Shown here: positions 46,709 through 58,128 of the stretch, in pieces
How positions within the stretch are numbered: position 1 is the first letter of the stretch
Layout of the letters: every line of letters starts with the position of its first letter
From: Thermotoga neapolitana DSM 4359
GTDB lineage: Bacteria; Thermotogota; Thermotogae; Thermotogales; Thermotogaceae
Assembly (NCBI RefSeq): GCF_000018945.1
Contig: NC_011978.1
Location: forward strand, 714,729 to 778,728
Direction of reading: 5' to 3'
Length of the DNA stretch: 64,000 nt
The notes under the pieces: generated by a model
Seen by the model: the letters and a program-made list of their open reading frames with translations, nothing else
The model's database searches: none
Told to the model about the DNA's origin: nothing
Translations under genes and position numbers: made by a program

Positions 46709-46862
46709 TTTGTGTCAATCCGTACTTAATAAGGATGAGTCTCTCCGAATACGCAATGTATCATGGTTTTCGATAGAACGGCCAAATTTTTGTTAACCCT
46801 CTTGACACGATGTGAATTCAGAGTTAATATAAACGATCGGAAGTGTGTTAATTTATTGACAC
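46702..46862. promoter_or_regulatory. Four TTGACAC boxes in the malE-amyA divergent region
   Basis: TTGACAC occurs twice on the minus strand (46702-46708 and 46712-46718) and twice on the plus strand (46802-46808 and 46856-46862). Two copies are -35 boxes; the other two are not placed as such. The last is part of AGTGT-N12-ACACT (46842-46863), just after the amyA start site. They could be binding sites for a shared regulator; this is inference. Confidence 0.4.
46802..46830 (+). promoter_or_regulatory. amyA promoter
   Basis: TTGACA (46802-46807) and TAATAT (46825-46830) are 17 nt apart, with an expected start near 46837, about 57 nt before the amyA start codon. Confidence 0.8.
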
Positions 46863-46893
46863 TGTAATGTTTTGCCAAGAAGGAGGAGCTGTT

Positions 46894-48546
46894 GTGAGAA
46901 AATCTCTTCTTATAGTGTGTTTGACGATCTTCGTCTTTATTTCCTCCTGTGTTCAAACGAGTGGCCAGCAATTTCAGTCAACTAGTCTTTTCCCTATTTC
47001 TTCCAACGGTTCTTCTGTTAAATACCCGGTAATTTATGAAATATTCATAAGATCTTTCTACGACAGTGACGGTGACGGCGTAGGAGATTTCAATGGGGTA
47101 ATACAAGAGATTGATTACCTTAAAGAGCTAGGAATAGACGCTGTTTGGTTCATGCCTTTCAACGAATCTGTTTCGTACCATGGTTACGACGTGGTCGATT
47201 ATTACGATGTTGAAGATGATTATGGAACGATGGAAGATTTTGAAAACATGGTTCAAGAACTCCACAAAAACGGTATCAAAGTCATCATGGATCTTGTGAT
47301 CAATCACACCTCCGACCAGCATCCCTGGTTCAGAGACGCTGTAGAGAATACAAGGAATTCACCATACTGGAACTACTACATCATGAGCCTTGAAGACCAC
47401 TCCGGTCAGGATCACTGGCACTGGAAGGTGAATTCCAGGGGTCAGAAAGTCTGGTACTTTGGACTTTTTGGTTACACAATGCCCGACTTGAACCACGACA
47501 ATACTTCTGTGAAAGATGAAGTGAAAAAAATAGTGGATTTTTGGCTATCCAAAGGTGTGGACGGTTTCAGAATAGACGCTGCAAAGCACATATACGGATG
47601 GTCGTGGGATGACGGTGTTGTAGCATCTGCTGAGTATTTTGAGTGGTTCAAAGATTACGTTCTTTCAAAAAAACCCGATGCAATAATCGTGGGTGAGGTA
47701 TTCAGTGGAAACGTATCTGATCTTTCGATTTACCCCATTTCCGTTTTCAACTTCGCCCTCATGTATGGAATACGAAACAACCTCGAGGGAATAGATGGTC
47801 TTCTGGAGAACAACTGGGTTGAAAATTCTTTTCCTTTTCTGGAAAATCACGATCTGAACCGCTTTTTCTCACACGTTCAGGATGTATACAACTTGTTCGA
47901 CGCTTCTGGCTACGAACTCATAAAAAAGCGCGTGGCTTTGTGGTATTTTCTGCTTTTCACGTTGAAGGGATCTCCTGTGATCTACTATGGAGGGGAAATA
48001 GGAACAAGGGGTTTCAAGTGGTACGGTCCCATCTACGATGAACCCCTGAGAGAACCCATGCAGTGGTACGCAGAAGGTAGTGGTGAGGGACAGACTTTCT
48101 GGACCAGGGAAATATACGATGCTCGTGGTGTGACATATGGAAACGCAAATGTCGATGGATGTGTGTACGATGACCCGTTCGATGGATTCTCAGTTGAGGA
48201 ACAGGAGAACGATCCTAAGAGTCTTTTGAACTTCTTCAAGTTCATGCTGGGTTTTCGAAAAGAACATGAATCCATTTTGAATGGAGATCAGAGAATCTTC
48301 AGAGACTGGAAAAATCTGATAGCGTTTTACAGATACTCTTCCAACGAAGAATTACTCGTCGTCGTGAATCCAGATCCGGTCTGGCCAAACAGTTTCAGTT
48401 TCGAAAAAGATATGACCATGATCCTCGAGGTGGACTTCGAGAATTTCACCTGGAGCGAAAAAAACAATTTCTTTTCTTCAGGAGAAAACTTCGAGGTTTC
48501 CCCCATGAAGGGATACATTTTCAAAAGTGAGGAGGTGCGAAAATGA
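46894..48546 (+). CDS. amyA: Secreted alpha-amylase lipoprotein AmyA, 550 aa
   Basis: The N terminus RKSLLIVCLTIFVFISSC is a lipoprotein signal with the lipidated Cys at 19, so the enzyme is anchored to the outer envelope (toga) facing starch. GH13 residues are D228 (DGFRIDAAKH), E268 (VGEVFSG) and D320 (ENHDLNR). Loops with calcium-type DSDGDGVGD are present. The GTG start follows GGAGGAG; upstream in-frame codons are not needed. It is first in the glucan-surface cluster and divergent from malE. Its stop overlaps the next lipoprotein gene by 4 nt. Confidence 0.96.
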   Translation: MRKSLLIVCLTIFVFISSCVQTSGQQFQSTSLFPISSNGSSVKYPVIYEIFIRSFYDSDGDGVGDFNGVIQEIDYLKELGIDAVWFMPFNESVSYHGYDVVDYYDVEDDYGTMEDFENMVQELHKNGIKVIMDLVINHTSDQHPWFRDAVENTRNSPYWNYYIMSLEDHSGQDHWHWKVNSRGQKVWYFGLFGYTMPDLNHDNTSVKDEVKKIVDFWLSKGVDGFRIDAAKHIYGWSWDDGVVASAEYFEWFKDYVLSKKPDAIIVGEVFSGNVSDLSIYPISVFNFALMYGIRNNLEGIDGLLENNWVENSFPFLENHDLNRFFSHVQDVYNLFDASGYELIKKRVALWYFLLFTLKGSPVIYYGGEIGTRGFKWYGPIYDEPLREPMQWYAEGSGEGQTFWTREIYDARGVTYGNANVDGCVYDDPFDGFSVEEQENDPKSLLNFFKFMLGFRKEHESILNGDQRIFRDWKNLIAFYRYSSNEELLVVVNPDPVWPNSFSFEKDMTMILEVDFENFTWSEKNNFFSSGENFEVSPMKGYIFKSEEVRK

Positions 48547-49919
48547 AGAAACTTCTTCTGGTTCTTCTGGTCGTTTCGTTTCTGCTCTACGGATGTCTGA
48601 GAACACCGCCCGTTGTTAAGGAAATGGTTTCTGTGGATGGGAATCTGAGTGACTGGGGAGAAAAAGTAAAGTCCGATCCCACTGACGATTCAAAGTGGGG
48701 AGCAGACAACGAACTCTTGAAGGCAGGGCTTTTGTTCGATGGAGAAAATGTGTACATTTCTGGTGAATATGTTCTTGGTGGTGACGGCAATCAAAACGTA
48801 TTTCTGGCTTTGATCGACCTTGTTGGTGTGAGTGGAGCACAGGAAGTTTCTTACACAGGACTGAACGGGGCAACGAGAGAGTTCAAAAATTCTCAGGGTG
48901 ACATAGACATCATAGTCGAAGTAGCCCAAAATAACAGTTACAAAGTCTGGAGAGTAGCGCAAGACGGCACGCTGACAGAGATAACAGATCAGGTGAGTGC
49001 GCAGTTTGGAACAGGTTCTACAATAGTTGAGCTTTCAATACCTATCACTGAACAGGTCGATCAGGTAAAGGCTGTCTTTGCCATCAGCGGTGGAACAGGC
49101 GGAGGAAAACAGTGGATTGGAGACTTCTATCCCAACCAGCCTGATCACGACGCAACATCGGATGGGGGGCTTACACAGCCAGCATCCGTTGTGAACTTTG
49201 TTGTGTGTGACAGCCAAGGTAATGTGACAGAAGAGATAAATCAGACAGAACCTACTCCAAGTGAAGAACAGCCCGCTCCACAACCCACAGCTACGATAAC
49301 CGTAGATGGAGATTTGAGTGATCTTGGAACTCCCGTTGCAACAAGCACAAATCCTGGTGGAGGAAATGGAGCAGATCTGTACTAGCTCTATGTGACATAC
49401 GATGCAACGTATCTTTACATAGGGTTCGATACTAAAAACACAGCAATCGATTCTGAGAACACTGGATCCTGGGATGTTGCATACGGAATAGGAATCGATA
49501 CAAAACCTGGTGGTTATTACACTGGAGACAGCGATGCGTGGGGAAGAAAGATAAACTTCGACGCTGGATACGCTGTGGACTACGAGATCTATTTCTGGTG
49601 GATTGGAGGATCTGGCCTGGATAGCGACAATTTCTGCATATGGACTGGATCGGGCTGGGATTACAAATCAATAAGTGATGTTTCCGGAACGTTTGCCCAC
49701 ACAGGGGACACAACAGACGGTCTTCAGACGATGGAGATAGCGATTCCATGGAGTGCCATAGGTGGAAAACAGGATGTGGCTTTGATCGTCTGGGTAACAG
49801 GCGGATATGGTTCTTCAGCTGTAGACAGCATTCCTGATGATAGTACTATTGGTGATAACAGCAATGAATGGGGTGATTCTGATACATTCACAAACTTGTA
49901 CTTTCTCAATGTAAACTGA
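48543..49919 (+). pseudogene. Two-domain carbohydrate-binding-like lipoprotein, interrupted by an in-frame TAG
   Basis: The frame encodes a lipoprotein signal (LVVSFLLYGC) and two similar beta-rich domains, each starting with VDGNLSDWG (about 31) or VDGDLSDLG (about 258). They resemble the C-terminal CBM9/DOMON-like domain of glucodextranase-type amylases. Codon 281 is TAG (49383-49385), and reading continues in the same frame for 178 codons (LYVTYDATYLYIGFDT...) to TGA at 49919. Restoring that codon would give a 458-residue protein; GAG to TAG is the simplest change. As it stands the first domain would be made alone. A linker rich in Pro, Glu and Thr (about 235-255) joins the domains. It may be a recent nonsense mutation, readthrough or a sequence error. 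Lies between amyA and another lipoprotein gene. Confidence 0.8.
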
Positions 49920-49932
49920 GGGGGTGAAGATC

Positions 49933-50586
49933 TTGAAGAAGTTGATTCCTGCTTTTTTGCTGATTGTGTTTCTTTCTGGATGTATGACTTTGCTCAACAT
50001 AAAGCTTCTAGATGGGGTTTATGTCGTTGGTGACTTTTCAAACGGAGTACCGAGTCCAGAGTACAAAATGACGCTTCAGGGTGGTTTTTACACCCTGGAG
50101 CTTCCCTCCTCCGTTTTGAACTTTGAAAATGACATCGCGTGGTATCAGGTCGTGGTCGTCGAAAATGGAGAGGTGGTGAAGACCTCTTCTGGGATTCCGC
50201 TGTGGAAACAACTCGTAGGAGAGAGCGTTACAGTGTACGCAACACCGAACCTGATGGAAAACAACACGGCAAAAGGAGTGGGAGACTCAGAAAAAGAAAC
50301 ACCTCCCTGGTACTGTGCTGGAGATTTCAACAACTGGGCACCTGAAGAGATGACCCTTCAAGATGGAAAGTTCATACTGAACACGGGATACACCATTTCT
50401 TCCGGTGAAACGGTGAAATACAAAATCGCAAGAAGCGAGGGCTGGAAACCATACGAAGAACAGTTCGACGGGACAAGTTACAACGCTGGATACGGTATGG
50501 ACGCAACCTTCACCGCCGACAAAGATGGAACGCTCGTCATAGAGTACGATCCACGAACAAGCACGCTTCAAGCACGTGTGGAGTGA
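49933..50586 (+). CDS. CBM48/CBM20-like lipoprotein, 217 aa
   Basis: The signal ends in FLSGC (lipidation Cys near 17). The first half (about 20-110) has VYVVGDFSNGVPS, and the second half (about 118-217) has WYCAGDFNNWAPEEMTL. Both patterns recall starch-binding E-set domains of SusE/SusF and AMPK-type glycogen-binding modules. No catalytic residues are visible, so the role is glucan capture at the surface. TTG 49933 is 9 nt from GAGGGGG; a GTG at 49924 overlaps that site. It is in the operon between the split lipoprotein and an outer-membrane protein gene. Confidence 0.78.
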   Translation: MKKLIPAFLLIVFLSGCMTLLNIKLLDGVYVVGDFSNGVPSPEYKMTLQGGFYTLELPSSVLNFENDIAWYQVVVVENGEVVKTSSGIPLWKQLVGESVTVYATPNLMENNTAKGVGDSEKETPPWYCAGDFNNWAPEEMTLQDGKFILNTGYTISSGETVKYKIARSEGWKPYEEQFDGTSYNAGYGMDATFTADKDGTLVIEYDPRTSTLQARVE

Positions 50587-50596
50587 GGTGAGAAAG

Positions 50597-51742
50597 ATGA
50601 AAAAATTCTGGATACTCATCTTCAGCGTGTTGATTTTGAGTTATGCGTTCTCCTTCTCCCCGTCAGGATCCATGAAGGTTGGCTATTCCTACGATCTGGA
50701 AAATCAGACCGGGTCGAACTACACAGAACTCTATCTTTCGGGGAACAACCTCTCCGGCGAGTTCACAACGAAAGATCTGAAACTCGACTCCGGATACATA
50801 AACCTCGATACAGACTTGATAGACTTCAAGGCGTATTACAACAGGTTGTTTGGTTCTACAGGAGACTGGATGGGAATATACACCTTTGACGACGATGGAG
50901 AGCAGAGAAACGGTGTTGAGGTCACATCCTTTGGATTCAGGGGCGTGATCGCAGGCGATGTTCAGTACCTTCAGTACCGTGGCAATCTTTCTGATATTTC
51001 TTTCAGCATGATGGCAGGAAAACATTCCTCGGTCAACGACATTTACTTTGATTTCAACTGGGAGCCCAACCTGAGATACTTTGGAGAAGTCGGCGTGAGT
51101 TACGAGGAAAAAGTGGGCGCAGAGAATTTCTTCTACATGATGGGAATCTCCTCCGTTGACTGGAAACACGGTGTGAAGATAACTGGTGTTGGATCCGAAA
51201 CGCGTCTGGATTACTGTGACTTCGTGAACGACAACAGCCTGAAAGGGGAGATACTCGCAAACCTCTGGACAACGCTGGGAGATTTCAAACTCTGGATGGA
51301 TTACAGGTTCAAGTCAAAAACCCCAAAGTACGGTTTTGAATACTCAATAAACGACTTCTGGTTCAAGGCCTGGAAAGAAGGAACGAAGTTTGACTCCGAT
51401 ATCCTCAACTGGGACGATTTTGGAATGGAAGTAGGAAAGAACTTCACTTTCATAGGCTTCAATGGAAAGGTCTCTTACAAGTTTGGAAAGCCTGCTCACG
51501 ATTCCACAACGGCCCTGGGAGAAGTTTTCTATGCAGAACTTTCCAGATCCTTTGGGAACATCAACTTCTTCGCCAAATGGCAGTACTTGAACACACTCTA
51601 CACAAAGGATTACACAGCCTATTACGAGTTGAAGGTATCCCAGGGAAGTTCTGAGTTCAAAATCGCCCTCGGTGATGGAGATTTCTCAAGCAAAACGACG
51701 TTTCAGAAAAAGGTTACCCTTGAATTTTCAACATGGTGGTAA
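50597..51742 (+). CDS. Outer-membrane (toga) beta-barrel protein, 381 aa
   Basis: A signal peptide (about 1-20, FWILIFSVLILSYAFS) precedes a chain of alternating polar and aromatic residues with many Tyr/Trp/Phe-rich strands, such as LKLDSGYINLDTDLIDFKAYYN. It ends in VTLEFSTWW, an aromatic C-terminal strand typical of barrel proteins. It is probably a porin or surface protein. No named family was recognised. Position between glucan-binding and CBM48-barrel genes suggests passage or anchoring of maltodextrins. ATG at 50597 follows GAGGTGAGAAAG. Confidence 0.75.
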   Translation: MKKFWILIFSVLILSYAFSFSPSGSMKVGYSYDLENQTGSNYTELYLSGNNLSGEFTTKDLKLDSGYINLDTDLIDFKAYYNRLFGSTGDWMGIYTFDDDGEQRNGVEVTSFGFRGVIAGDVQYLQYRGNLSDISFSMMAGKHSSVNDIYFDFNWEPNLRYFGEVGVSYEEKVGAENFFYMMGISSVDWKHGVKITGVGSETRLDYCDFVNDNSLKGEILANLWTTLGDFKLWMDYRFKSKTPKYGFEYSINDFWFKAWKEGTKFDSDILNWDDFGMEVGKNFTFIGFNGKVSYKFGKPAHDSTTALGEVFYAELSRSFGNINFFAKWQYLNTLYTKDYTAYYELKVSQGSSEFKIALGDGDFSSKTTFQKKVTLEFSTWW

Positions 51743-51757: not shown

Positions 51758-53740
51758 ATGAAAAAGATCCTGCTTTTTGCTGCTTTGATAATGAGTATCT
51801 TTGCGTTCTCTGATGTCTTCGTCGAAAACGGCAAGGTGGTTTTCACCTTCCAGTGGGAAGGTGCAAAAGTGGTTTATCTTGCCGGAAATTTCAACAACTG
51901 GAGTCCAACGGCTCTTCCGATGAAAGAAGTTGAACCTGGACTCTGGAGAGCAGAACTCGAACTTGAACCTGGAACGTACCAGTACAAGTACGTGATAGAT
52001 GGAACCACTTGGAAAGAGGATCCGAACGCTCCCGGATACGTGGACGACGGATTCGGGGGCTACAATGGAATATTCACACTTGTGGAAAAGGACGGAGAGC
52101 TCTTCATAGTTGCTTCTCAGAAGAAGGGAGAGGAAAAGAAATACGAACCCAATCCGGAAAGGGAAGACACTATCTTCGTTGAAGATGGCGTTGTGGTAAT
52201 CAGGTACTACAACCCCGATGCGGAGTTTGTAACCATAGCCGGAAACTTCAACAACTGGAACGCAGAGGAGATAGAAATGTATCCAGTAGAGGACAGCTGG
52301 TGGGAAGGAGTACTGGAACTCGAACCTGGTATCTACGAATACAAGTTTGTCGTCAACGGAGAAGAGTGGGTCACAGATCCGAACGCGTTTGCGTTCGTTG
52401 ACGATGGATTCGGTGGAAAGAACGGAGTTTTCGAAGTCTACGAAGAGAACGGAGAGTTGAAGGTGAAATCTCCTGTTGAAGAGGAAGAAAGCGTCGCTGA
52501 AGAAAAAGAACCTGTCGTTCAGGAAAAAACGCTCGAAGAAGGCCTCAGTGTGGAAGATGGATACGTTGTCTTTGTCGTGAAGAAACCGGAAGCCTCCGAA
52601 GCCTACGTTGCCGGAAACTTCAACAACTGGAGCACAACTGCAAATCCAATGGAAAGAAAAGGAGACCTGTGGGTGGCAAAAATTCAACTGAGCCCGGGAA
52701 CCTACCAGTACAAGTACGTGTTCACAATAGCAGGAAGCCAGGTCTGGCAGGAGGATCCTTATGCTCCTTCCTATGTGCCCGATGGTTTTGGAGGGAAAAA
52801 TGGTGCCTTCAGGCTCGTGGAGAAAGATGGAGAACTGGTGATAGAACCCCTTGAGGAGAAAGCAGGCGGTGAAACACCGTTCTTTGGAAAGTACTCCATC
52901 GATCTTACCTACCAGTATGCAACAGATACCTTTTTGAAGCCCCTTGAAAGTTCCCACGAACTCGTACTCGGTGTGGAAACCGATTTTCTGAAAGCAACTC
53001 TTGGTTTTAACCCTGGCGGATCTTTGCTTGAAAGCGCAAAAGTAGATGTAACAAGCGACAGTTTCAGGGTTTTTGGTCATTACAACACACCCATTCTGGG
53101 AGAGGAAACACCTTACGAAGACTGGCTCCAGAAAACTGGTTTTGGTCTTGGTTTTTCCGTTCTCTCGTACGAGATCATGGCAGATGTTGGGTTCGACATC
53201 GATGCCACAAAGGAAAGATTTCTCCTTGGTGTCTCGGGAGAAAACTTCGGTGCGTATTTTGGTATCAACTACCTTCTTGGAATGGAAAAGGTGAATCTTT
53301 TGGGCTTCTTCTCCTTTGATCTTCTCGGTGCCACGACAACCATCTGGGCAGGAACGATTTTCGACAATCCGGTTCTCTACTTCGTGAATCTCTCAATCGA
53401 TGCCGATGTCTACGATCTGAAATACCTCTATTACGAGAAAACTTCTGCTGATGACAAAGGCCTTTTGAAGGCCAGTCTGGATGTCTTCAATCTGGAACTC
53501 TACGGAGACTACAACATGAACAACAACACCTACACCTTGAGTGCTGGGTACGTGTTCGATGATACGTACGTTCTTGGGCTTTCCTACAGATACGGCGATT
53601 ACAACAACTTCGAAATCGACCCTGACAGAATTTCCGTCTTTGGAGAACTCAGAAACGACACGGCAAAGGCAAGGCTCAGCGTTACATACGATGCTTACAA
53701 GAACATCTTCGTGGAATTTTACGGTGAGGTCAACTTCTGA
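51758..53740 (+). CDS. Triple CBM48-like modules fused to an outer-membrane barrel, 660 aa
   Basis: After a signal peptide (about 1-18) come three CBM48/AMPK-like glycogen-binding modules: about 18-117 (YLAGNFNNWSP), 137-235 (TIAGNFNNWNAE) and 262-372 (YVAGNFNNWSTT). Each has the family's GNFNNW and PGTYQYKYV or PGIYEYKFV parts and ends with DDGFGG or PDGFGG. A Glu-rich linker (about 236-260) joins modules 2 and 3. The last 280 residues (about 380-660) are Tyr/Phe-rich beta strands ending in VEFYGEVNF, an OMP-type C terminus. The fusion suggests a surface barrel that displays glucan-binding domains. No homologue with this architecture comes to mind. It lies 17 nt before pulA. Confidence 0.82.
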   Translation: MKKILLFAALIMSIFAFSDVFVENGKVVFTFQWEGAKVVYLAGNFNNWSPTALPMKEVEPGLWRAELELEPGTYQYKYVIDGTTWKEDPNAPGYVDDGFGGYNGIFTLVEKDGELFIVASQKKGEEKKYEPNPEREDTIFVEDGVVVIRYYNPDAEFVTIAGNFNNWNAEEIEMYPVEDSWWEGVLELEPGIYEYKFVVNGEEWVTDPNAFAFVDDGFGGKNGVFEVYEENGELKVKSPVEEEESVAEEKEPVVQEKTLEEGLSVEDGYVVFVVKKPEASEAYVAGNFNNWSTTANPMERKGDLWVAKIQLSPGTYQYKYVFTIAGSQVWQEDPYAPSYVPDGFGGKNGAFRLVEKDGELVIEPLEEKAGGETPFFGKYSIDLTYQYATDTFLKPLESSHELVLGVETDFLKATLGFNPGGSLLESAKVDVTSDSFRVFGHYNTPILGEETPYEDWLQKTGFGLGFSVLSYEIMADVGFDIDATKERFLLGVSGENFGAYFGINYLLGMEKVNLLGFFSFDLLGATTTIWAGTIFDNPVLYFVNLSIDADVYDLKYLYYEKTSADDKGLLKASLDVFNLELYGDYNMNNNTYTLSAGYVFDDTYVLGLSYRYGDYNNFEIDPDRISVFGELRNDTAKARLSVTYDAYKNIFVEFYGEVNF

Positions 53741-53757: not shown

Positions 53758-56289
53758 ATGAAGACCAGATTCTGGATCCTGCTTGTTCTTCTTTTCGCTG
53801 TACTGATCTTTTCCGAAACTACCATAATAGTTCACTACCATCGGTACGATGGAAAGTACGACGGATGGAACCTCTGGATATGGCCTGTAGAACCCGTTTC
53901 CCAGGAAGGGAAAGCCTACCAGTTTACAGATGAAGACGACTTTGGTAAAGTTGCTGTAGTGAAACTGCCTCTTGATCTTACAACGGTGGGGATCATCGTG
54001 AGACTCAACGAATGGCAGGCAAAAGACGTCGCGAAGGACAGATTCATAGAGATAAAAGACGGAAAAGCAGAAGTGTGGATCCTTCAGGGAGTGGAAGAGA
54101 TATTCTACGAAAAGCCAGATACTTCTCCACGAATTTTCTTCGCACAGGCAAGATCGAACAAGGTGATAGAAGCATACCTGACAAATCCCGTTGATACCAA
54201 GAAGAAAGGACTCTTCAAAGTCACAGTGGATGGAAAAGAGATACCCATCTCAAGAGTGGAGAAGGCAGATCCCACGGATGTGGACGTGACAAACTACGTG
54301 AGGGTCGTTCTCTCTGAGCCTCTGAAGGAAGAAGATCTCAGAAAAGATGTGGAACTGATCGTAGAAGGATACAAACCTGCCAGGGTCATCATGATGGAGA
54401 TCCTGGACGATTACTACTACGACGGTGAACTTGGTGCCATTTACTCTCCTGAGAGAACGATCTTTAGAGTATGGTCTCCCGTTGCAAAATGGGCGAAGGT
54501 GCTTCTTTTCAGAAGCGGAGATGACACAGAGCCGTTCAAAGAAGTGGATATGGACTATAAAGGAAACGGTGTGTGGGAAGCGGTGGTGGAAGGAAATCTG
54601 GATGGTGTTTTCTATCTTTATCAACTGGAAAGTTATGGAAAGGTGAGAACAACGGTCGATCCTTACTCCAAAGCAGTTTACGCAAACAGCAAAAAGAGCG
54701 CTGTAGTGGATCTTTCCAAAACGAATCCAGAAGGCTGGGAAAGCGACAAAAGGCCACAGATCGGAGGATATGAAGATGCCATAATCTACGAAATTCACAT
54801 AGCGGACATAACTGGCTTTGAAAACTCCGGAGTGAAGAACAGAGGCCTTTACCTTGGACTCACAGAAGAAGGCACAAAAGGACCTGGAGGAGTGACAACA
54901 GGCCTTTCACACCTTGTGGAACTTGGAGTTACACACGTTCACATACTGCCTTTCTTCGACTTCTACACGGGAGATGAACTGGACAAAGACTTTGAAAAGT
55001 ACTACAACTGGGGCTACGATCCTTACCTTTTCATGGTACCTGAGGGAAGGTACTCAACAGATCCAAGGAATCCATACGCGAGAATCAGAGAAGTCAAAGA
55101 AATGGTGAAAGCCCTGCACAGACACGACATAGGTGTGATCATGGACATGGTGTTTCCTCACACTTACGGTATTGGAGAACTCTCTGCCTTCGATCAGACG
55201 GTACCCTACTACTTCTACAGGATCGACAAGACAGGGGCATATCTGAACGAAAGTGGATGTGGAAACGTAATCGCAAGTGAAAGGCCCATGATGAGAAAAT
55301 TCATCGTGGACACAGTTACATACTGGGTGAAAGAATACCACATAGACGGCTTCAGATTCGATCAGATGGGTCTCATAGACAAAAAGACCATGCTTGAGGT
55401 GGAAAAGGCTCTCCACAAGATCGATCCAACGATCATTCTGTACGGTGAACCCTGGGGAGGCTGGGGTGCTCCCATCAGGTTTGGAAAGAACGATGTTGCC
55501 GGCACACACGTGGCCGCCTTCAACGATGAGTTCAGAGATGCAATAAGGGGCTCTGTGTTCAACCCAAGTGTCAAGGGATTCGCCATGGGTGGATACGGAA
55601 AGGAAACCAAAATCAAAAGAGGTGTTGTGGGAAGCATCAACTACGATGGAAAACTCATAAAGAGTTTTGCTTCAGATCCGGAAGAGACCATCAACTACGT
55701 TGCCTGTCATGACAACCACACCCTCTGGGACAAAAACTACCTTGCCGCAAAGGCAGACAAAAGGAAAAAATGGACCGAAGAAGAGTTGAAGAACGCTCAA
55801 AAGCTTTCCGGAGCCATAATACTCACCTCACAGGGAGTTGCTTTCCTCCATGGAGGGCAGGATTTCTGCAGGACGAAGAACTTCAACGACAACTCCTACA
55901 ACGCTCCCATCTCGATAAACGGATTCGACTACGAAAGAAAGCGTCAGTTCATAGATGTGTTCAACTATTACAAGGGACTCATAAAACTCAGAAAGGAACA
56001 TCCTGCTTTCAGGTTGAAAACGGCGGAGGAGATCAAAAAGCACCTGGAATTTCTGCCTGGTGGAAGAAGGATCGTTGCGTTCATCCTCAAAGATCACGCA
56101 GGTGGAGATCCGTGGAAAGACATAGTGGTGATTTACAACGGAAATCCAGAGAAGAGTACGTATAAACTTCCAGAAGGAAAGTGGAACCTCGTTGTGAACG
56201 GGCAGAAGGCGGGTACAGAGGTGATTGAAGTCGTTGAGGGAACGATCGAACTAGAACCACTTTCTGCCTACGTTCTGTACAGGGAATGA
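53758..56289 (+). CDS. pulA: Type I pullulanase, 843 aa
   Basis: It cuts alpha-1,6 branches of pullulan and starch. A signal peptide (about 1-19) is followed by a CBM41-like domain (about 20-105, [20 protein letters not shown] in pieces), CBM48 (about 215-310) and the GH13 barrel. The type I signature YNWGYDP is present. Catalytic residues lie near 535 (DGFRFDQMG), 564 (YGEPWGG) and 651 (CHDNHTLWD). A C-terminal beta domain closes the chain. The length equals T. maritima PulA. It follows the CBM48-barrel gene in the surface-glucan cluster, and a terminator follows it. Confidence 0.97.
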
Positions 56290-56362: not shown

Positions 56363-58108
56363 ATGATGAAAAAACTGGTATTCGGTATCCTGGTTCTTGC
56401 AACGGTGCTTCTCTTTTCCCAGACTTTCCGCCTGGAGAAGATCCTTGGGTTCAGTGAAGTCTCCGCCATGACTTTTGAAAATGGCTACCTTGTTCTTGGA
56501 ACAGGAAACGGTGAGATCGTTGTCTACAGGGATGGATCCTATTACAGGGCATTCAAAGTCCATGAAAACAGGGTAAACAGCGTCGTATACAGCGATGGTT
56601 TCGTTGTGAGCGCCTCAGACGATAAAACAGTCGGCATCACGAACATTGAAACGGGAGAATCTCACTTGCTCGAAGGTCATATGAAGGGAGTTTCCTCTGT
56701 TTCGGTTTCAAACGGAAAAATCTTCAGCGCCTCTTTCGATGGAACGGTGAGGATATGGTCCTTCCCTGACGGAAAAGAAATATCTTCTCAGAGATTCGGT
56801 CCTTCAGTTGTTCAAATTGCCGCAAGTGGAAACAGGTATGTCGTTGGTCTGGCCAACGGGCTTGCTGTGATCAGAGATCTTTCGAACCCATCTCTTTCTA
56901 TCCCTCTCAAGGCCCATCCGGAGGGAATAAAGAAGATAGTCTTCTCTGAAAACGGCAAACTCATAGCCACATGCGGGGGAAATTCAGTGAAGGTCTGGGG
57001 CGCCTCAAGCGGAAGACTCGTTCTTCAAAAAGACCATGTCATAACGGTGAACGATGTTGATTTCCTCGGCAACGATATGGTTGTTTTCGTAACAGACGAC
57101 TACAAGGCCGTGATCCTGAACGTTGAAAAGGGAGAGACGGTAAAATCTGTGAACGCCCACAACAACTTTGTCCTTCTGGTCTCATCGGACGATGACACCA
57201 TAGTCACCTATGGTATGGACGGCATTGTGAACGTCTGGAATGCACAACTGGAACTCAAGTACTCTCTCTTTGGACACAAACTCTCGGTGAATGCGCTGGC
57301 AATCTCAGACGATGGAAAAACACTGGTCAGTGGTGGCGACGATAGAGAGATACTCGTCTGGGATGTGGAGAAGGGAAGGGTAACACACAGAATCAAAGCG
57401 CTTGCAAGTGTGAGAAAACTTCTGATAGTTGAAAACACCATCATTTCCTGTCTGGACAGTAACACAATCAAGATGTACAGTCTGGAAAACGGAAAACTAA
57501 TCAAGAGAGTGAAGGTTGGAACAACCAGCACCATGGATGTGTCCCTCTTCGATGGAAAAGTTGCTGTTGGCTTTTATGATGGAAGTGTTGCGCTGTTTGA
57601 TTATCCTTCCTTCAACGAGATATGGAGAAAAGATACAGAACACGAGATCGTTCAAACCATCGATATGAACGAAAAGTTCGTTGCCTTTGGAGTGTCTTAT
57701 TCTGATCCAAAGGGAAAAACAGGATATGTGGAGGTCCTTTCAAAGGAAACGGGTGAAAAGGTGTTTTCCTTTGATGCCCACAGCGGAAACGTGAACGCTG
57801 TGAAGTTTGCGGAAGATTACCTTGTATCCGGTGGTGAAGACGGAAAGATCGTGCTCTGGAGTTTAAGCACTGGTTCAAAGGTGAGAGAGATCTCTCTTGG
57901 TGAGGCCGTATCTTCTTTGCTTTTCAGCGAAGAAAATCTTTTTGTTGGGACATGGAACGGAAACCTTTATGTTTTCGATTTTCCGGAACTGACTTTGAAA
58001 ACCAAACTGAAGGTATCGGATCAAAAGGTGGGACATTTTGTGAAGGTAGGCAGTCAACTCCTGATTCCCTGTGGAGACGGAAAGATAAGGATCTTCGAAG
58101 AGAAATGA
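56363..58108 (+). CDS. Exported WD40/YVTN-like beta-propeller protein, 581 aa
   Basis: A signal peptide (about 1-20, LVFGILVLATVLLFSQ) is followed by about 13 or 14 short repeats such as GHMKGVSSVSVSNGKIFSAS and SFDGTVRIWSF, then GHKLSVNALAISDDGKTLVSG and GGDDREILVWDV. Each repeat ends in a W-like dipeptide. The length fits two propellers of seven blades. No catalytic site was seen, so it probably binds a partner or substrate outside the cytoplasm. Its job with pulA and the mal genes is unknown. AGGAGGTTG provides the ribosome site. Confidence 0.85.
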   Translation: MMKKLVFGILVLATVLLFSQTFRLEKILGFSEVSAMTFENGYLVLGTGNGEIVVYRDGSYYRAFKVHENRVNSVVYSDGFVVSASDDKTVGITNIETGESHLLEGHMKGVSSVSVSNGKIFSASFDGTVRIWSFPDGKEISSQRFGPSVVQIAASGNRYVVGLANGLAVIRDLSNPSLSIPLKAHPEGIKKIVFSENGKLIATCGGNSVKVWGASSGRLVLQKDHVITVNDVDFLGNDMVVFVTDDYKAVILNVEKGETVKSVNAHNNFVLLVSSDDDTIVTYGMDGIVNVWNAQLELKYSLFGHKLSVNALAISDDGKTLVSGGDDREILVWDVEKGRVTHRIKALASVRKLLIVENTIISCLDSNTIKMYSLENGKLIKRVKVGTTSTMDVSLFDGKVAVGFYDGSVALFDYPSFNEIWRKDTEHEIVQTIDMNEKFVAFGVSYSDPKGKTGYVEVLSKETGEKVFSFDAHSGNVNAVKFAEDYLVSGGEDGKIVLWSLSTGSKVREISLGEAVSSLLFSEENLFVGTWNGNLYVFDFPELTLKTKLKVSDQKVGHFVKVGSQLLIPCGDGKIRIFEEK

Positions 58109-58128
58109 GGGGGAGTTCCCCCTCTTTC
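58107..58128. terminator. Bidirectional terminator between the propeller gene and the ROK gene
   Basis: GAGGGGG (58107-58113) pairs with CCCCCTC (58118-58124) around AGTT. TTTCTTTC follows on the plus side; on the minus side ATTTCTC follows. It overlaps the stop codon of the propeller gene. Confidence 0.85.

Follow-up and report, generated by a model that had tools for sequence, protein, structure and literature searches.

On balance, the protein encoded at positions 51758..53740 (+) of the stretch of Thermotoga neapolitana DSM 4359 DNA analysed here (64,000 nucleotides, referred to as the window) is probably a wide outer-membrane β-barrel channel with a built-in periplasmic catcher for α-glucans, and would act within a gene cassette that is Sus-like but unrelated to Sus. 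It combines three CBM48 modules with a predicted C-terminal barrel. According to PMC3387000, only a few proteins of the toga, the unusual outer sheath of Thermotogota, have been identified so far. For the passage of starch fragments through this sheath, the conserved CBM48-barrel gene block described below offers concrete candidates.

Three CBM48 modules with intact glucan-contact residues

The ORF starts with ATG and encodes 660 amino acids: a non-lipoprotein signal peptide (residues 1-18, upstream of position 51812 at 51758..51811, +; cleavage site placed by eye), three modules of ~100 residues with short linkers, and a C-terminal domain of ~286 residues. Based on Pfam and an alignment to AMPK, module 1 covers residues 19-118 (51812..52111, +), module 2 residues 138-238 (52169..52471, +), and module 3 residues 261-363 (52538..52846, +). 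An earlier note on this gene had drawn attention to two repeated patterns, and both indeed occur three times, GNFNNW at residues 43-48, 162-167, and 286-291, as well as PG(T/I)YxYK(Y/F)V. Its assignment of the modules to the CBM48 type was confirmed by the Pfam profiles AMPK1_CBM (E 5e-34, 116.8 bits versus a cut-off of 26.8) and CBM_48 (E 4.7e-31, 107.4 bits versus 22.4), each matching in three stretches. In a profile scan of the whole genome (1,884,562 bases), AMPK1_CBM matches at E<=1 were confined to this ORF. The modules align to AMPK β and to the CBM48 of 5ot1, a GH13 pullulanase. Full-length AlphaFold2 modelled them as E-set β-sandwiches with a pLDDT of about 80-90 over most blocks, and a modelled module superimposed on the AMPK domain 1z0m with a TM score of 0.77 of the target.

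In AMPK β, W100 and W133 stack on glucose while K126 and N150 form hydrogen bonds (PMC9788615), and the two equivalent tryptophans are required for starch binding by plant PTST (PMC4339375). Alignment to solved AMPK chains places the equivalents at W48/K77/W85/N103, W167/K196/W204/N222, and W291/K319/W330/N348. All 12 of these 12 contact positions, the starch-contact residues on which the earlier note's proposal hinged, are present and invariant among 17 aligned homologues, an alignment from which the window protein itself and four near-duplicates were left out. In the same set, invariance extends to 97 of 304 positions in the modules versus 8 of 286 in the barrel. At the position corresponding to AMPK L146, a residue that inserts into the cyclodextrin ring, the modules have F or Y. 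Judged by these contact residues, the modules appear able to bind glucan.

Alternatively, the modules could be E-set domains with a structural role and no glucan binding. This may be true of other CBM48-like folds, among them the type IX secretion plug, and the NCBIfam profile T9SS_plug does match the protein (E 3.6e-12), albeit at 46 bits and thus below its cut-off of 100. We consider this reading highly improbable: the four AMPK contact residues are invariant in all three modules, the gene lies within an amylolytic gene run, and close copies of modules 1-2 are found on GH57 enzymes in relatives (see below).

The C-terminal domain is very likely an outer-membrane β-barrel

The C-terminal domain (residues 375-660; 52880..53737, +) was assigned as a barrel with 20 predicted strands from alternation statistics, a structural model, and fold matches. 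In the Pfam scan of the protein, the C-terminal ~286 residues gave no match. No PDB sequence match was obtained at E<=10, and Pfam searches with 21 barrel members returned single chance-level matches only, none of them to a porin. The same holds for the neighbouring barrel described below: sequence and profile searches of both barrels against PDB and Pfam gave no convincing match. By sequence, the domain does not belong to a described porin family.

The domain contains 17 alternating strand-like stretches versus 9.6 in shuffles (z 3.3). All 22 homologous C-terminal domains, including this one, lie above their shuffles (z 1.6-5.4); for ten further proteins or segments of the window, used as controls, z ranged from -2.3 to 1.45. 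The protein ends with GEVNF, and the final F was found in 31 of 31 homologues read. Barrel-only AlphaFold2 with four sequences yielded one folded model with 20 strands (pLDDT 69.9, pTM 0.58); the remaining four of the five models were unfolded (mean pLDDT 35-47), as was the barrel part in the full-length prediction with four sequences. A Foldseek search with the folded model returned β-barrel or outer-membrane-complex entries in all of the best 50 PDB rows, with porin 1bh3 as top match (E 1.4e-7) and OmpM1 among the matches. With VIA, Z scores ranged from 12.2 to 14.0 among the 50 matches listed, including OprB (12.8), AlgE (12.9), and maltoporin 1mpr (13.2 over 242 residues at 3.9 Å). The barrel signal is unlikely to have arisen by chance, since the model has 20 strands and matches porins. 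As far as a model of this confidence can tell, the C-terminal part is therefore very likely an outer-membrane barrel, which agrees with the earlier proposal of a fusion to a barrel-like C terminus with an aromatic end.

In the model, the side chains pointing inward are for the most part small, polar, or charged (S, G, K, D, T, E) and those pointing outward hydrophobic or aromatic, a split that was made by hydrophobicity, so that this outcome is partly built in. The hydrophilic inner face and the short loops of the model make a channel plausible, in which the barrel would enclose a closed pore.

The modules probably face the periplasm

The barrel model also bears on the orientation of the modules. 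Its connections after odd-numbered strands measure 7, 6, 15, 6, 8, 4, 4, 4, 11, and 4 amino acids, those after even-numbered strands 3, 2, 2, 3, 2, 3, 2, 3, and 3. All nine short turns (2-3 amino acids) hence lie on the side that carries the N-terminus and all ten longer loops (4-15 amino acids) on the opposite side, an unevenness matched by none of 200,000 shuffles. While these lengths derive from the model itself, the indels derive from sequences: in 20 homologues compared to the window protein, deletions per residue amounted to 0.24 in long connections, about 0.05 in short ones, and 0.04 in strands. Because the number of strands is even, the N- and C-terminus come to lie on one side of the barrel. 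In barrels of the outer membrane, the turns on the periplasmic side are short and the loops on the outer side variable. By this usual rule, the short turns and few indels on the N-terminal side place the CBM48s in the periplasm, the compartment that also contains the N-terminal SLH domain of OmpM (PMC10628300). The modules would therefore probably sit under the pore and not on the cell surface, contrary to the surface display that the earlier note had envisaged.

In surface display, the CBM48s would cross the membrane, for instance by an autotransporter-like route, and face outward, attaching the cell to starch. An N-terminal domain followed by a C-terminal barrel of ~285 residues does recall the outline of a type Va autotransporter, which has a 12-strand barrel with a pore-spanning helix. 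In addition, the α-amylase TM1840 and a xylanase are toga-associated enzymes (PMC3387000). But the protein has no autotransporter match in Pfam at E<=1, and its barrel, in a model of modest confidence, has 20 strands and no helix ahead of strand 1. Only 11 residues link module 3 to strand 1; such a short linker without a modelled helix argues against this route, as does the side on which the N-terminus lies, with short turns there and the indels opposite. We therefore regard surface display as unlikely.

The neighbouring genes encode a barrel paralogue and a lipoprotein with a CBM48-like domain

Gene order around the ORF equals that of T. maritima TM1839-TM1845 as tabulated in PMC2246101; therefore, the ORF is the orthologue of TM1844. 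A table entry in this paper is the only occurrence of TM1844 that we found in the open literature searched. As described in the earlier note, the gene lies between another barrel gene (50576..51742, +), which ends 15 bp before it, and a pullulanase gene (53758..56289, +), which starts 17 bp after it. The latter encodes a type I pullulanase (TM1845 orthologue) with a non-lipoprotein signal peptide, as judged by eye.

The preceding gene, the TM1843 orthologue, encodes a barrel without CBM48 that ends with STWW and shows a similar alternation (z 3.4). By hhalign, the two barrels are remote homologues in an alignment of ~117 N-terminal columns (probability 94.9, E 4.4e-8; reversed-profile controls E 0.03-0.11). 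Neither has a further copy at E<=0.001 in its own genome; a weak stretch (E 0.06) with an internal stop was set aside. Further upstream, the TM1842 orthologue (49924..50586, +) encodes a lipoprotein whose C-terminal domain is a remote CBM48, according to profile comparison (hhalign probability 95.3, E 2.4e-8) and alignment. The lipobox Cys and the W/K/W positions are invariant in 21 aligned sequences. This lipoprotein resembles two E-set domains, the second being CBM48-like; the first gave a weak, non-significant match to SusF (E 0.52).

The TM1841 orthologue (48543..49919, +) is a lipoprotein gene split by an in-frame TAG at 49383-49385, where a sense codon stands in all five Thermotoga relatives checked. 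Recent nonsense mutation, sequencing error, and readthrough are all possible explanations. The run begins with the TM1840 orthologue (46867..48546, +), an AmyA-type GH13 α-amylase with a lipobox-like N-terminus, and its last gene (56363-58108) encodes a WD40-repeat protein whose N-terminus resembles a signal peptide. From amyA to the WD40 gene, all genes point in a single direction with overlaps or gaps of less than 80 bp, and malE1 and malF are transcribed away from them. Consensus matches place a promoter-like site ahead of amyA (46802..46830, +), back to back with one for malE1 (46708-46680), and a terminator-like stem-loop after the WD40 gene (58107..58124), the end of the presumed operon. 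This hairpin is strong; promoter-like sites overall are no commoner in the window than in shuffles. Judged by spacing and consensus sites, the run looks like one operon for capture, debranching, and import of α-glucans, whose genes would be co-transcribed.

The fusion is conserved in Thermotogota

Matches at E<=0.001 were obtained in 64 of 103 Thermotogota genomes, in many of them solely because enzymes carry CBM48. The long form, which combines the barrel with three modules, occurs in 6 of 7 genomes of the same genus and in 15 of 20 genomes of family f3 among the matches listed. Of the 19 family f10 genomes with a match, 12 appear to encode a one-module form of ~410-430 amino acids; this base does not include 19 more match-free genomes of unlisted family. 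Eight of these 12 ORFs were read, all with one CBM48 and the final F. Other forms were seen in one genome of family f6 and one of a sister genus. GH57 fusions and two-module proteins of ~250 amino acids were not counted as barrel proteins, and a genome with a CBM48-GH57 protein only was kept outside the counts. Since the CBM48-barrel fusion is conserved in the phylum, it is no peculiarity of the T. neapolitana genome. No relative of the protein was found among the viral contigs scanned.

The barrel paralogue and the CBM48-like lipoprotein adjoin the gene in all 25 neighbourhoods examined. A TM1841 homologue was present in 17 of the 25, an AmyA homologue in 13 (two at only 24% identity), and pullulanase in 5, the Thermotoga ones only; many contigs are short, so that absences of these three count for little.

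The constant presence of a second, CBM-free barrel would suit a reading in which the CBM48-bearing barrel has no channel role and merely ties a glucan-binding scaffold in the periplasm to the outer membrane, leaving transport to its neighbour or to OmpB. The fast evolution of the barrel compared to the modules fits such an anchor as well. However, the lumen-facing residues of the model and its short loops suit an open pore, and its top structural matches include sugar and general porins. We rank the alternatives to a channel in the order surface display, pure anchor, and non-binding modules, so that an anchor is a still less likely explanation than display.

In relatives, two modules 60-67% identical to modules 1-2 are joined to GH57 enzymes or form free secreted proteins. 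At five loci, one or two such CBM48s are found on GH57 enzymes or, in one case, alone as a secreted protein of ~250 amino acids. We read the GH57 fusions as shuffling of CBM48 modules between outer-membrane protein and amylases. In a wider search, in which 58 of 76 loci were read, a two-CBM48 protein with 57% identity to the window protein was seen on a contig labelled Planctomycetota, possibly a misplaced Thermotogota contig.

A second family of ~700-790 amino acids, again CBM48 followed by a C-terminal domain that ends in an aromatic F, was observed in Eisenbacteria, Zixibacteria, and bacterium AUK196. Of 20 genomes around the Eisenbacteria hit, 17 contain a match to the C-terminal domain of this family, and at three loci of the family a CBM48-like lipoprotein gene follows. 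A common origin of these domains with our barrel is conceivable: alignments of the Eisenbacteria profile lie just past CBM48 in our protein, but scores are weak, with hhalign probabilities of 1-3 for our barrel (best 3.2 with E 0.014) and 2-13 for its paralogue; reversed controls gave 0.1-0.4. The profile used lacks 5 of 15 loci of the Eisenbacteria set, which were not recovered by the search pattern.

Proposed mechanism

Once the protein has been exported and its signal peptide removed, its last ~286 residues would fold into a barrel of ~20 strands with short loops and a hydrophilic lumen; from the N-terminus of this barrel, the three CBM48s would extend into the periplasm. Either this pore or the paralogous barrel could admit glucan chains that the lipoprotein amylase has trimmed, and the CBM48s, aided by the CBM48-like lipoprotein, would catch each chain as it emerges. 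Such capture may bias diffusion inward and hold dextrins close to the pullulanase in the periplasm and to the MalE1-MalFG importer. Both the periplasmic orientation and glucan transport through the barrel are presumed here.

It is conceivable, if rather less than probable, that Thermotogota own a conserved outer-membrane machine for α-glucan uptake that is unrelated to Sus and LamB. It would consist of a paralogous barrel pair, one member of which bears one to three periplasmic CBM48s as a ratchet pulling chains through a wide TonB-independent pore, together with the CBM48-like lipoprotein and often a lipoprotein amylase. If the modules do sit under the pore, this would be a compact means of drawing a polymer through the outer membrane without TonB, distinct from Sus and LamB. 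The hyperthermophile origin of the parts favours biochemistry and engineering.

Comparison with known systems

The Thermotoga modules share sequence, fold, and glucan-contact residues with the CBM48s of AMPK β and pullulanase. But there, the domain serves kinase regulation or aids an enzyme, whereas here three modules are placed on a predicted membrane barrel. The Eisenbacteria/Zixibacteria/AUK196 family has the same arrangement of CBM48 module(s) and a C-terminal domain ending in an aromatic F, but this domain measures ~520-580 amino acids versus ~286 and its homology score is weak.

Maltoporin LamB is an outer-membrane maltodextrin channel with 18 strands and long inward loops. It resembles the Thermotoga barrel in that 1mpr is a structural match to the model; unlike the latter, LamB has no attached CBM, and sequence similarity between the two was not detected. 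In the Sus systems of Bacteroidota, one locus combines an amylase, glucan-binding lipoproteins, and outer-membrane barrel(s) for capture and import of starch fragments. Judging from its genes, the Thermotoga locus likewise appears to combine an amylase, a lipoprotein of glucan-binding type, and outer-membrane barrels. However, its glucan modules are fused to the barrel itself, the importer is presumably a MalEFG-type ABC transporter, and no SusC, SusD, or TonB-receptor match was found in the eight window proteins scanned.

A CBM48 fused to an outer-membrane barrel was not found described in the open literature searched, which leaves most subscription-journal papers outside; this also applies to α-glucan modules in such a position within a phylum-wide cassette. 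A periplasmic binding domain joined to a porin, on the other hand, is a known kind, represented by OmpM. Its solved structure comprises an N-terminal periplasmic SLH domain and a C-terminal 16-strand porin (PMC10628300). In the Thermotoga protein, SLH was not detected at E<=1. It resembles OmpM, which occurs in Veillonella and other diderm Terrabacteria, in carrying on one chain an N-terminal binding domain, here probably periplasmic as well, and a porin-like barrel. But OmpM binds peptidoglycan via SLH and has 16 strands, where the Thermotoga protein has three α-glucan modules and ~20 predicted strands.
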